The notes under the pieces were generated by a model that saw only the letters and a list, made by a program, of their open reading frames with translations, had not been told where the DNA came from and ran no database searches. Positions 19,070 to 24,294 of a DNA stretch of 64,000 nt are shown piece after piece. Position 1 is the stretch's first letter, and each line of letters begins with the position of its first letter. This DNA comes from an uncultured Pelagibacteraceae bacterium (GTDB lineage Bacteria; Pseudomonadota; Alphaproteobacteria; Pelagibacterales; Pelagibacteraceae). The stretch covers positions 33,707 through 97,706 of the forward strand of contig CACEKT010000001.1 in NCBI GenBank assembly GCA_902560225.1, written 5' to 3'. A program made the position numbers and the translations under genes.

Positions 19070-19813
19070 ATGAATAAATCACCTTTTTTTATAGTTGGAC
19101 AACACGCCGTTATAGAAGCTTTAAGAAACCCTAATAGAAAGGTTTTAAGAGTTTTTTTAACAGAGGAGTCTAAAAAAAATATACATAGAAAAAACCCTAA
19201 AAAAAATATTTTAGAAGACGTTAAGGTCTATTTTAAATCTAAAAAAGAGCTAGATAAATATACAAGTAAAGATCAATTAATGCACTCTGGATATGTTGCA
19301 GAAATTGAACATCTTGAACAACCAGACTTAAAAAAATTTATTAAAGAAAAAAAAAATTGTACTTTTATTTGTTTGGACGAGGTTACAGATCCAAGAAATA
19401 TAGGTTCATTAATTAGAAGTGCAGCATCATTTAATATAGATGGTTTAATTATCAAAGAAAGACATTTTCCAAAAGAGAGTAAATTAATGTATAAATCTGC
19501 TAGTGGATGTTTAGAGCATTTAAATATTTTTCAAGTATCAAATATAAATTCAACACTTAAAAATCTAAGGGAAAAAAACTTTTGGGTTTATGGGTTTGAT
19601 TCAAAAGGAGAAAAAGATTTTACAGATATAAAATGGGAAGGTAAAAATGTACTTCTCTTTGGTTCAGAGGGTTTTGGTATGAGGGAGCATACTGGAAAAT
19701 ATGCAGATTTTTTTGTTAAAATTGATATTAACAAAAATATAGAAAGTCTTAATATATCAAATAGTGTAGCAATAGCACTTCATCACTTAAGTTATTTAAA
19801 AAAAAAGAGTTGA
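19070..19813 (+). CDS. rlmB: 23S rRNA (guanosine-2'-O-)-methyltransferase, TrmH/SpoU family
   Basis: ORF 247 aa with CLDEVTDPRNIGSLIRSAASF and LLFGSEGFGMR. Confidence 0.9.
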   Translation: MNKSPFFIVGQHAVIEALRNPNRKVLRVFLTEESKKNIHRKNPKKNILEDVKVYFKSKKELDKYTSKDQLMHSGYVAEIEHLEQPDLKKFIKEKKNCTFICLDEVTDPRNIGSLIRSAASFNIDGLIIKERHFPKESKLMYKSASGCLEHLNIFQVSNINSTLKNLREKNFWVYGFDSKGEKDFTDIKWEGKNVLLFGSEGFGMREHTGKYADFFVKIDINKNIESLNISNSVAIALHHLSYLKKKS

Positions 19814-19846: not shown

Positions 19847-19922
19847 GCCCTTGTAGCTCAGTTGGTAGAGCAATTGATTTGTAATCAATAGGTCCGCGGT
19901 TCGAATCCGTGCGGGGGCACCA
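19847..19922 (+). tRNA. tRNA-Thr (anticodon TGT)
   Basis: GCCCTTG...TTTGTAA loop...GGTTCGAATCC...CACCA; full cloverleaf, encoded CCA. Confidence 0.96.
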
Positions 19923-20013
19923 TCACTCAATAAAATCAACACTTATTATTTTTACAAAATTAAAGTTTAACTAAATTCTGATTTTGAGTGCATCGAGATT
20001 GTGTCGTAATTAA

Positions 20014-20595
20014 TTATAATTTTTTATCATTTAGCTTAGTCATAGCTTTTCCAGGGGAAAAAGTATAATCATTGTCATCCATTAATTTTCCATTTCCATC
20101 ATAAAGTTTCCAATTAAATTTTACTTTATCTTTCTGCTTCTTTCCTAATTTTAAAATAGTCAATTCTATTTTTCTTGGCTTACCACCAGAAGCACCTTTA
20201 AATGATCTGGTCTCACCTTTTTTCCAAACTCCTAAAGGAAATTTACATCCATTTTTTATTACTCTTCCTCCACGTCTACTATCCCAAACTCTACCAATAC
20301 ACTGTCCATCATTAGTGACTGAAAATAACTGTGTTTTTAATCCGCTTTGACCTTTTCTTGTTCTTTTATAAACTTTTATTGTTTCTCCAGTTTGAGGATT
20401 TTTCCAATCCTCAGGTCCAACTATTTTTTTTCTTTTCTTTTCACCAAATATCAAATTAGCATTTGTAAATTTAATTTCTGTATCTTCTCTTATTTCACCG
20501 CCAGTGAAGAGCTCTAAAGGAATAAATCTCTCATCAGCTGATACTGGAATAATCCACAAAAAACCAAGAACCACGATCCCTAAAAGTTTTTTCAT
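20014..20595 (-). CDS. Hypothetical secreted protein (signal peptide)
   Basis: ORF 193 aa, N-term MKKLLGIVVLGFLWIIPVSADE; no family recognised. Confidence 0.75.
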   Translation of the reverse strand: MKKLLGIVVLGFLWIIPVSADERFIPLELFTGGEIREDTEIKFTNANLIFGEKKRKKIVGPEDWKNPQTGETIKVYKRTRKGQSGLKTQLFSVTNDGQCIGRVWDSRRGGRVIKNGCKFPLGVWKKGETRSFKGASGGKPRKIELTILKLGKKQKDKVKFNWKLYDGNGKLMDDNDYTFSPGKAMTKLNDKKL

Positions 20596-21377
20596 TGTTT
20601 AAATTTTGCCTCTACATCTCCAAATTCTGATGAAGAAACTTTAATTAATATATTATTATTTATAGGAACTGGAAAACCGTACGCCCCAGTTAAAATTAAA
20701 TCATCTTTTTTTAAAATAACATTTATCTTGGCTTGTTCTTTAGCTAACCATTCAACTTCAGACAACATATCCAATGGCCATTTTTTATCTGTCCACGTAT
20801 CTATTATTTTATTATCATAAATTAGTTTTAGATCTGTTATTTTTTGATCTTTTGAAAATTCATTTTTTGGTCCCAAAATAACGCCAGCGTGTAATGCATT
20901 ATTTGCTAATAGTTCTGCGCCATAAGGTTCTTCTCCGTTAAAAACTAAATTATGAATTTCTATTAAAGGATAAATTGAATCGATTGAGTTGAGTATATAA
21001 TCGAAAGAAACAAGTTTTGGATCTATGTCACGATTCAACTTAACACCAAACTCTGCTTCCATAGCAGGATTAGAATAATCTTTTTTATTTAGCTCCACCC
21101 CACTTTTGTATAATTCACTTTTCCAAAGTGTTCCCCAAGCAGGCTGAGTGAAACCCATTTTTTTTTGGGTATCTTTAGAAACACAACCAATCTTATAGCC
21201 CATAACTTCTTCACCTCTATCAATTCTTAATTTTGAGATTTTTGACTGGATAAGTAGCGCATCATTATTGCTTATTTTTATTTTTGTTTTAAAAATTGAG
21301 CTTGGATTATTGCTATCATAATCATTTAAAATAGTATTTGCGTATTCATTTAATTCCTTTTGATTTAATTTAATCAT
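20592..21377 (-). CDS. 2-keto-4-pentenoate hydratase-like (fumarylacetoacetase-superfamily)
   Basis: ORF 261 aa, GYKIGCVS...QPAWGTLW...MEAEFGVKL...LHAGVILGP. Confidence 0.8.
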   Translation of the reverse strand: MIKLNQKELNEYANTILNDYDSNNPSSIFKTKIKISNNDALLIQSKISKLRIDRGEEVMGYKIGCVSKDTQKKMGFTQPAWGTLWKSELYKSGVELNKKDYSNPAMEAEFGVKLNRDIDPKLVSFDYILNSIDSIYPLIEIHNLVFNGEEPYGAELLANNALHAGVILGPKNEFSKDQKITDLKLIYDNKIIDTWTDKKWPLDMLSEVEWLAKEQAKINVILKKDDLILTGAYGFPVPINNNILIKVSSSEFGDVEAKFKQ

Positions 21378-21472
21378 CGATAAACTTTTATCACTGTGCC
21401 TATAGTGTGTACAGAATTGAAATAACTTTCAATTAACGTTGATAGTATTTATCTTTTTGAATTTAGACTCTC

Positions 21473-21519
21473 GATTTGCAATCAATGGGTCCGCGGTTCG
21501 AATCTGTGCGGGGGCACCA
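21473..21519 (+). pseudogene. tRNA-Thr 3'-part remnant (candidate att-like repeat)
   Basis: GATTTGCAATCAATGGGTCCGCGGTTCGAATCTGTGCGGGGGCACCATC (21473-21521) matches 46/49 of 19876-19924; no 5' half. Confidence 0.9.
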
Positions 21520-21533
21520 TCTTTAAATAGAAA

Positions 21534-22262
21534 TTAAATTATTTGAATCGCACATGCGGTTCCTTCATCAGCAAAAGCTAAATATCTATACTCATTTTCA
21601 TTAAATACTTCTGTTAAAGCCTTATATTCACCGACATCCCATCCAGGATAATTATAAAGTTCATCAAATACTATTATACAATTTTTTTTTAGATATGGCT
21701 TTATTTTTTCAAGTACGAATTTGGATGAGGCATATGTATCAAGGTCCATATGTAAAAAATTAATTTCTGGTTTTTTTTCTATTAGAAAATTTTCAACTGT
21801 ATCTTGAACCCAACCTTTAATAAGAGTTACATTTTTGTTAGTCTTTGGCATTACACTTTTTCTATCAAAGCTTCCTTTTTGCAAATTTAATGTACCATGC
21901 CAGTCTTCTTTTAAACCCTCAAAAGAATCAAAACCATAAATTTCTTTGACATAATTTGAAAAAAAATTAATTGACTCGCCATGGTGCACACCGAATTCAA
22001 GAGAGTATTTTTTACAATCTTTGTCATTTACTAATGCTTCTTTAATTGCATAAGCCCTAAGTAGTCTAGTGGTACTAATAAATATTGAGCTTTTAAAATA
22101 TTTTTTAAAGTGTTCATATGATCGTAAAAGCTGTTCTTCTTTGAACATCGAATATGGGGTTATTTTTTCAACAGATTTTCTTGGTAATGGAATTAAATTA
22201 TGTCTAATACTTATCAAATATTGTTTAAATATATTTAAGATTTTTTTTATTTTGTTTTTCAT
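21534..22262 (-). CDS. Class I SAM-dependent methyltransferase (TylF/macrocin O-methyltransferase-like)
   Basis: ORF 242 aa, EFGVHHGESINFF...IYGFDSFEGL...LHMDLDTYASS. Confidence 0.75.
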   Translation of the reverse strand: MKNKIKKILNIFKQYLISIRHNLIPLPRKSVEKITPYSMFKEEQLLRSYEHFKKYFKSSIFISTTRLLRAYAIKEALVNDKDCKKYSLEFGVHHGESINFFSNYVKEIYGFDSFEGLKEDWHGTLNLQKGSFDRKSVMPKTNKNVTLIKGWVQDTVENFLIEKKPEINFLHMDLDTYASSKFVLEKIKPYLKKNCIIVFDELYNYPGWDVGEYKALTEVFNENEYRYLAFADEGTACAIQII

Positions 22263-22268
22263 TTTATT

Positions 22269-22829
22269 TTATACTGATTGACCTTTAATTAGCTTTTTAA
22301 GACGGGGTATCATAATTTTTGGTGATTGCATAGATGGATAAATTTTTTGGACTTCTATATAACTACTAATGGCTTTCTCATAATTCTTTAATTCAATCTG
22401 AACTAAACCTTGTCCGGATAAAGCTCCAAAGTGTCTTTTTTCTAGCTTAAGCACTTCATCGATATCTTTTTGTGACTGTTCATATCTGCCCAATAAATAA
22501 AGTACTGTTGCTCTTTTATTCCATGCTTCAGACCAATTAGGATCAGTTAAAATAATTTGCGAAAATATTTCATAAGCTTTATTTAATTCTTTACCGCTCA
22601 TCAAAAAAGAACCTTGAGCTAATAATTTTGTTAAATTTAATCCTTTATCATTATTAGATGGATGAGTTGACCAAATTTTCCATATTTTATTTTCTATTTT
22701 TACAGCGCTAGAGGCCTCACTATTTTTAAGCTGTTTAAAAAGACTGTTTAACTTGTTCTCTCTTTCATTAGCATTAACATTACTTAAAAATAATAAAAGA
22801 ATAGCGATAGTTCCTAAAAGTTTTTTCAT
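22269..22829 (-). CDS. TPR-repeat periplasmic/secreted protein
   Basis: ORF 186 aa, signal peptide MKKLLGTIAILLLFLSNVNA and TPR-like repeats. Confidence 0.75.
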   Translation of the reverse strand: MKKLLGTIAILLLFLSNVNANERENKLNSLFKQLKNSEASSAVKIENKIWKIWSTHPSNNDKGLNLTKLLAQGSFLMSGKELNKAYEIFSQIILTDPNWSEAWNKRATVLYLLGRYEQSQKDIDEVLKLEKRHFGALSGQGLVQIELKNYEKAISSYIEVQKIYPSMQSPKIMIPRLKKLIKGQSV

Positions 22830-22832
22830 TAA

Positions 22833-23519
22833 TTAAGTTTTTTTAACACCTGTTGGATGAGCAACCCCATCAATAATCAGCTTAGGTTCAATACTTACAT
22901 CTACAAGTTTGGGACGTGCATCAAGATAAGATTTAACAGTTTGAATAGACATAATATCTTGAAGAAATTTTTCTAATCTAGGGAACTTATTTAATAATGT
23001 CAGGTCAAGTAGCTTTGATAGATCTAAGTGATGAAATACTGTAAAATCACACGCATGTGGTGTGTCATCTATAAAAAATTTTGCATCATTATCTTTTAAT
23101 GCTCTGTCAAGATCTTCAAATCTAGAAGTTAAAAAAGGTATCATATCCTCACGTTTTTTTTTAAAACGATCCCCTACTGCAAAATTTATTGTTGGATTAA
23201 GAGGTAAAAATAATTCTTGAGCACTTAGCATAACTGCATTCGCTTTAGCATTTAATATTGGGTCAGTAATGTTAGTCCCCGTAATATTTTCAATAAATGT
23301 TAGTATTGAAATACTCTGACAAATTTCATGTTTTTTATCTACTACCAACATAGGTAATTGTCTAAATGGAACTAATGGTTTAGCTTCAGACCAGTCCTTG
23401 TCATAATAATCCCATGACATTATGTAATCATAATCCAATTCTGTATAATGCATTAAAAGTCTTGGGGCTTCTGCTAAAGCTCTCATTTTAAAGTAAATTA
23501 ATTCTAATTTATGTTTCAT
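22833..23519 (-). CDS. Glutathione S-transferase family protein
   Basis: ORF 228 aa, LIYFKMRALAEAPRLLMHYTELDY...RQLPMLVVDKKHEICQSISILTFI. Confidence 0.85.
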   Translation of the reverse strand: MKHKLELIYFKMRALAEAPRLLMHYTELDYDYIMSWDYYDKDWSEAKPLVPFRQLPMLVVDKKHEICQSISILTFIENITGTNITDPILNAKANAVMLSAQELFLPLNPTINFAVGDRFKKKREDMIPFLTSRFEDLDRALKDNDAKFFIDDTPHACDFTVFHHLDLSKLLDLTLLNKFPRLEKFLQDIMSIQTVKSYLDARPKLVDVSIEPKLIIDGVAHPTGVKKT

Positions 23520-23523
23520 GTAA

Positions 23524-24294
23524 TTAACTTGTTTCTTTTCTTAATTGCTCAATTTTAATTTTCTTTTGCAAACTTCTATTTTTATCATAGAGGAGATTAA
23601 ATTTAATTTTATTGTTTGTTTTAACTATAATTGTTTTAGCATTTCTTACTTCAAGATTGTCTGCAACTGCACTAATTGGTCTTTTTATTGGATTAAGATT
23701 AGTTATTGTAATTTTTGATTTATCATTAACTATTTTGCCTTTCCATCTACGTGGTCGAAAAGGACTAATTGGAGCAATTGATAGTTTTTTTGAGTTTAAA
23801 CTTAAAATAGGTCCATGAACTGAAAGATTATATGCAGTACTTCCTGCAGGTGTTGATACTAATACACCATCTGACACTAGTTTCTTTATAATTTTTTTAG
23901 TACCATGCTTGATAGATATAGATGCCGCCTGTCTGCTTTGTCTTAATACTGACACTTCATTTATGGCTAATGATTTTTTTGTTTGATTATTTTTATTTTT
24001 AACAATCATTTCTAAAGGTGAAATAGAAATCATGTTAGCTTTAGATAAATTTTTGATTATATTTTTTGATGAAAATTTATTCATCAAAAACCCATAATTT
24101 CCAGAATTAATTCCATAAAATTGTTTTTTAGAATTTTTATTCTTTTTTAAAGTTTCAAGCATGAAGCCATCACCACCAATAACAATAGTAAGATTATTCT
24201 TTTTAAACTTATAATTATTAATTTTTTTAATTAATAAATTTTTAATTTTTAAAGATTTTTTATTTTTATCTGAAATTATATGAAACTTGTTCAT
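23524..24294 (-). CDS. nadK: NAD kinase
   Basis: ORF 256 aa, VIGGDGFMLETLKK, GINSGNYGFLMN, STPAGSTAYNLSVHGPI. Confidence 0.92.
   Translation of the reverse strand: MNKFHIISDKNKKSLKIKNLLIKKINNYKFKKNNLTIVIGGDGFMLETLKKNKNSKKQFYGINSGNYGFLMNKFSSKNIIKNLSKANMISISPLEMIVKNKNNQTKKSLAINEVSVLRQSRQAASISIKHGTKKIIKKLVSDGVLVSTPAGSTAYNLSVHGPILSLNSKKLSIAPISPFRPRRWKGKIVNDKSKITITNLNPIKRPISAVADNLEVRNAKTIIVKTNNKIKFNLLYDKNRSLQKKIKIEQLRKETS

Follow-up and report, generated by a model that had tools for sequence, protein, structure and literature searches.

CIMEs are elements that have lost their integration and transfer genes but have kept attL and attR (Pavlovic 2004; Bellanger 2011; following the definition in the available part of PMC5704250). 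They derive from ICEs and IMEs, are moved by conjugation, and stack in tandem with related elements at a single site. Phage satellites (PICI, PICMI, VEIME, tycheposon) integrate at tRNA 3′ ends, whereas integron cassettes and CALINs are small cargo units whose recombinase lies elsewhere, which form arrays at one site, carry attC, and insert at attI. In Dehalococcoides, successive ssrA-specific islands follow a tRNA-like gene, a copy of whose 3′ end delimits every island, and an integration module is present in only 16 of the 31 (available portion of PMC3146451). Satellites, MITEs, and CALINs figure in a review of mobilizable elements, in whose available text no mention of tRNA cassettes of the kind described here was found (PMC11389934). 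Likewise, the accessible part of the open-access literature yielded no earlier description of SAR11 islands at tRNA genes.

The present study characterised a tRNA-Thr gene and its downstream region within a window of 64,000 nucleotides, the whole stretch of DNA analysed, from an uncultured Pelagibacteraceae bacterium. In the highly streamlined genomes of SAR11, few mobile elements are known, and the route by which they gain genes is therefore an open question. The tRNA-Thr site offers a concrete route, delivering one to three genes per event, with the minimal cassette bearing no integrase cost. Positions 30–76 of tRNA-Thr plus TC reappear 1.6 kb downstream of the gene (Table 1), with E-values of 8.9e-16 against the whole genome and 4e-14 locally, and the 5′ half is missing from this copy. 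The attL/attR geometry that an earlier note had described for this duplication was thus reproduced, together with its gene calls for a secreted hypothetical protein and a hydratase-like gene, both of which were correct. In line with that note, no integrase was found in the interval 19923–21472; neither an integrase nor any other tyrosine recombinase was found in the genome as assembled (67% complete). The copy differs from tRNA-Thr at T36C, which changes the anticodon from TGT to TGC, A44G, and C61T. All three are transitions, as would fit a displaced, no longer functional copy that has drifted; the derivation from another tRNA allele that had been proposed for TGC is unnecessary, as drift of the displaced host 3′ half, the alternative offered alongside it, suffices. 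The attL would be composite, its 5′ half of host origin and its 3′ half (~19876–19922) brought in by the element.

Table 1. Features of the tRNA-Thr site in the window.
Feature	Position	Strand	Remark
rlmB-like rRNA methyltransferase, conserved upstream flank	19070..19813	+	lies 777 bp before tRNA-Thr in the majority of the 96 genus genomes
tRNA-Thr(TGT), attL	19847..19922	+	copies begin at tRNA positions 22-31
conserved left end, including 11-bp direct-repeat pair AGTGCATCGAG / ATTGTGTCGTA at 19987-20008	19923..20008	+	
secreted protein, 193 aa, cassette-typical leader MKKLLGIVVLGF (leader DNA ~20561-20595)	20014..20595	-	
MhpD/HpcG-fold 2-keto-acid hydratase or decarboxylase-like protein, 261 aa	20592..21377	-	fold comparison
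right arm, 11-bp direct-repeat pair ACTGTGCCTAT / AGTGTGTACAG, -80 from tRNA position 30	21393..21414	+	
remainder of conserved right end (..TTAACGTTGATAGTATTTATCTTTTTGAATTTAGACTCTC)	21415..21472	+	
attR, putatively displaced host 3′ half of tRNA-Thr, 46/49	21473..21521	+	
older inserted block (SAM methyltransferase, TPR protein, GST-like protein) between attR and nadK	21534..23519	-	
nadK, conserved downstream flank	23524..24294	-	3-16 bp from tRNA-Thr at empty sites

Among the described systems, the window element resembles a CIME apart from its likely origin: attL and attR are kept (tRNA-Thr, its 46/49 copy, and conserved ends), integrase and transfer genes are absent, and only two cargo genes are carried. 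Tandem structures are also seen among related cassettes, which differ from CIMEs in being ~1.6 kb long, in holding 1–3 genes, and in retaining both arm-repeat arrays. In contrast to the conjugative ancestry of CIMEs, the cassettes' integrase-bearing relatives are phage-satellite-like, as judged from contig L217, and no conjugation genes were noticed in those found at the core, where the G263 element is too short to tell. The cassettes share tRNA 3′-end integration with phage satellites; the PICI-like genes for integrase, replication, and packaging are absent from the window cassette but present in L217, as an integrase, a helicase/primase-type ATPase, and a terminase small subunit. Of the tycheposon criteria, the window cassette has the tRNA site without the tyrosine recombinase. 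Integron cassettes are similar in cargo size, arrays, and remote recombinase, but the repeated site is here the tRNA-Thr 3′ end plus arm repeats rather than attC. The Dehalococcoides islands, alike in their serial arrangement, differ in using a serine recombinase, in their 20-bp copies, and in their larger size (available portion of PMC3146451).

The site was compared among the genus-mates listed by the searches and in 14 genomes of a second family, genus counts referring to 96 sites with a full tRNA-Thr. The gene order rlmB, tRNA-Thr, nadK is conserved across these 96 genus-mates. The site is empty in 24, with nadK 3–16 bp behind tRNA-Thr; 28 have a downstream 3′ copy of the tRNA (at least two copies in five of them), 32 hold an insert up to nadK with no recognisable 3′ copy, and 12 are broken off by a contig end. 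The 3′ copies start at about tRNA-Thr positions 22–31, in the anticodon stem, and their recurrence behind this one tRNA exceeds chance. The first cassette measures 0.7–2.4 kb at 22 of the 28 sites, none of these containing an integrase, and 5.8–9.9 kb at the other 6. Cassettes carry one to three genes, and their cargo nearly always differs between sites, comprising secreted proteins, prepilins, glycosyltransferases, an HNH nuclease, and restriction-modification genes (named from sequence reading rather than family search, except where stated). Alternative cargo, which the earlier note had suggested looking for across SAR11 relatives, is therefore common, as are empty sites; the same content throughout deep relatives is not what was found. 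The block between attR and nadK in the window is missing from empty sites, and its GST gene stands alone between tRNA-Thr and nadK in G327 and G347.

Cassette ends are conserved independently of what they enclose. Unrelated cargo is enclosed by recurring left ends (TCACTCAATAAAATCAAC...) and right ends (TTAACGTTGATAGTATTTATC... or TTCGTTGGAAACAAATATC...), the left end of the cassette in the window (TCACTCAATAAAATCAACACTTATTATTTTT) being among those shared in this way, and a pattern of right end plus core was detected in 27 of 300 genus genomes, with zero matches for the reversed control pattern. The ends carry 11-bp direct repeats of the pattern A-N-TGTG-N5 whose distance from the core is fixed. 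Of 34 right ends, 19 contain strict arrays, every one at −80 or −79 from tRNA position 30; of the 28 left ends at sites with a 3′ copy, 15 do, at +53 to +67 (+54/+64 in relatives). Such arrays are absent from all 24 empty sites and 275 cassette-interior windows and appear in 4 of 1240 shuffled ends. By eye, the 11-bp pair is visible in 27 of the 34 right ends, the seven without it being larger elements, G055, and one far copy. In a motif-free test of unit lengths 9–13, 11 was the only length prominent at a shared position in the two ends (z 11.3 right, 13.4 left). One arm variant, sought in 201 genomes, gave nine matches, all nine 54–64 bp behind a tRNA-Thr core. Left and right variants agree within an element (13 pairs, permutation p ~5e-5, an optimistic value as the elements are related). 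The right pair of the window cassette is clear, whereas the left pair, read by eye, has one degenerate unit and misses the strict pattern. The two pairs belong to different variants, which may mean that the copy is a recombinant or has lost its mobility.

From their position and their placement beside integrase genes, the repeats are judged to be of arm type; they could be excisionase sites instead. A lambda-type integrase substrate has a core flanked by arm-type repeats to which the integrase N-domain binds; here the repeats are in fixed phase, and an integrase with a predicted arm-binding N-domain may bind them. Core and 11-bp repeats together provide a marker for finding cassettes in SAR11 genomes or metagenomes. 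Ends bearing these repeats are common to dozens of cassettes with unrelated cargo, and the window interval is one of this family rather than a single fossil.

Neither cargo protein of the window matched Pfam or PHROGs, the hydratase being named by fold comparison (AlphaFold pLDDT 91.5; Foldseek E ~1e-20 to HpcG/MhpD). A homologue of the secreted protein with 94% amino acid identity occurs at the same site in G323, without the hydratase. Copies of the hydratase with 96–98% protein identity lie in five other genomes (SAGs AG-422-C20, AG-461-L09, AG-390-D18, AG-453-A22, and AG-422-D23), only behind tRNA-Thr, and the flanking genes of these genomes are ~72–89% identical to those of the window. Remoter versions (~43–78%) occur at other places in SAR11, in SAR116, and in a few further genomes, apart from one (78%) near nadK. 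At the DNA level, the hydratase of G024, G331, and G352 is 96–98% identical to that of the window, against 79–83% for nadK and 75–85% for rlmB; two of the three also share the right end (96–99%), and the similarity ends where the tRNA core ends. These identities indicate that the hydratase module has moved recently between species. Its secreted partner differs among all four genomes, with the switch falling within the signal-peptide codons (ATGAAAAAACTTTTAGGGATCGTGGTTCT). The leader DNA has ten matches in 31 genomes, six of them within the tRNA-Thr site; at further leader-bearing loci, G004 C2 and G078 C28, no tRNA was seen nearby. Swaps at the leader DNA and at the right-end border suggest that homologous exchange does occur here.

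Integrases accompany the same core in a few relatives. The IMG/VR contig L217 (8.9 kb) has the tRNA-Thr core without the 5′ half and encodes an integrase of 328 aa, the terminase small subunit, and an AAA_25 ATPase. Repeats of this type lie on either side of its core, at −90 and +92, the right ones about one helical turn from the −80 of the cassettes, and the modelled integrase shows a beta3-alpha N-domain, with full-length lambda integrase as best fold match. L217 is thus, by its gene content and repeats, a satellite-like element with a putative tRNA-Thr attP laid out as in the cassettes. In G263, an integrase 73% identical to that of L217, cut by the contig end, adjoins a tRNA-Thr 3′ copy and nadK, with repeats between integrase and copy. 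The relative in G268, next to a tRNA-Asn-like 3′ copy, and others at tRNA-Met also have 11-bp repeats separating core and integrase. The G432 element, 2.1 kb long and bounded by tRNA-Thr and a 3′ copy, contains an integrase stub of 78 aa together with genes resembling those for peroxiredoxin and methyltransferase, and looks like an intermediate in integrase loss; the part of nadK present in G432 is 92% identical to that of the window.

A search of temperate phages for the 49-bp core, as the earlier note had proposed, found no integrating phage with the core among annotated phage genomes, only a weaker, phage-borne tRNA-Thr-like sequence, although IMG/VR did supply the integrase-bearing satellite. 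The L217 integrase has no close relatives in IMG/VR besides itself, and neither the right-end motif nor the cassette left end gave a match when IMG/VR was scanned; as no left end was found there, transfer in particles is unsupported. A looser core scan returned 33 viral contigs, the majority being phages that have a complete tRNA-Thr gene. Four partial ones among them (L340 and L342–L344, two with integrases) have a core like the tRNA-Thr of the sister family, lack a clear 11-bp arm pair, and were set aside. The 7.7-kb element of G055, with an integrase of 451–464 aa at the site, is not the parent of the cassettes because its ends differ, and the G184 integrase was dropped, lying 7 kb beyond an empty site.

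We consider it likely that the window interval is a mobile, non-autonomous, satellite-derived cassette, inserted in the anticodon region of tRNA-Thr, whose movement probably depends on satellite or phage integrases acting in trans. The circular form of this small integrative cassette would hold a complete attP (tRNA-Thr from anticodon region to 3′ end, with 11-bp arms on both sides), two cargo genes, and no integrase. Conservative site-specific recombination would insert it, leaving the host 5′ half in the rebuilt tRNA-Thr and shifting the former 3′ half of the host gene rightwards as the 49-bp copy. Many tRNA integrases cross over in the anticodon stem-loop and, as the copies begin in the anticodon stem, the crossover is placed there. 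The cassettes have landing sequences and no integrase, and therefore probably borrow the enzyme from real parasites: a lambda-type arm-binding tyrosine integrase would act in trans, or in cis after tandem accretion, its donor being a phage satellite or phage with the same core, such as the L217 or G263 element, by which the site also yields a candidate helper enzyme. Excision and transfer would presumably continue today. Satellites probably lost their integrase, through a stage like that of G432, before the cassettes spread and swapped modules. A wider reading is possible, though we hold it only tentatively, namely that SAR11 practises an integron-like gene exchange with no integron of its own, in which integrase-free cassettes having a full tRNA-derived attP pass from species to species by way of borrowed satellite integrases, and secreted proteins are additionally shuffled at signal-peptide DNA.

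The earlier note had regarded the interval, with no integrase visible, as a decayed element or cargo remnant; the conserved arm-repeat ends and the recently moved hydratase module show that this description falls short. A decayed genomic island or prophage, immobile since it lost its integrase and transfer genes, would account for the truncated integrase of G432 and the three transitions in attR; it is nevertheless unlikely, given end sequences conserved despite unrelated cargo, the narrow size range of 22 of the 28 first cassettes, the tandem stacking, and a near-identical hydratase that is bounded at the tRNA core across divergent hosts.

The module swaps at leader DNA and right-end border would also be expected of an island built up additively by homologous recombination across short shared stretches (tRNA core, signal-peptide DNA, hydratase), with the tRNA copies serving as homology rather than integrase sites. 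As a full account this is improbable, as it leaves unexplained the fixed repeat distances, the match between left and right repeats, the repeats beside integrase genes, and the precise empty sites; homologous recombination could still spread cassettes between resident sites after insertion. It is very improbable that a host enzyme moves the cassettes in the manner of an integron integrase, although a conserved tyrosine recombinase of 310–325 aa is present in nearly all genus genomes and is the sole PF00589 match in most, including the single-contig cassette holders G313, G326, and G361. Its N-terminus shows no obvious beta3-alpha arm-binding domain by eye, it lies roughly 80–100 kb from tRNA-Thr wherever both share a contig, as an Xer-like housekeeping gene would, and the 11-bp repeats occur beside arm-binding integrases.

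Several further observations were made. The host recombinase (e.g., G012:C1:616685-617233) is divergent, occurring once in nearly every genus genome, usually with no second Xer-like match, while the majority of sister-family genomes carry two. In G268, G326, G338, and G432, the cassette cargo includes prepilin-like genes (MKxKGFTLIELLVVVA) in arrays of as many as about eight. Larger elements (5.8–9.9 kb) with other ends (TATCAACGTTAATGAAAGG...) occupy the same site in G016, G070, G171, G209, and G325, some with restriction-modification-like genes and none with a recognised integrase. In G019, G171, G217, G331, and G345, the 5′ half of tRNA-Thr (1 to 41–47) lies 2.6–10 kb upstream of the full gene, a mirror image of the usual geometry, and the G019 interval has type III R-M-like genes. 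The tRNA-Leu(TAA) adjoining nadK in the window has a 5′-half copy (1–42) upstream in G171 (L356 7907–7948, 9495–9580). In the sister family, inserts of 0.4–0.5 kb with tRNA-Thr 3′ copies occur at the same gene in G028, G030, G032, and G037.
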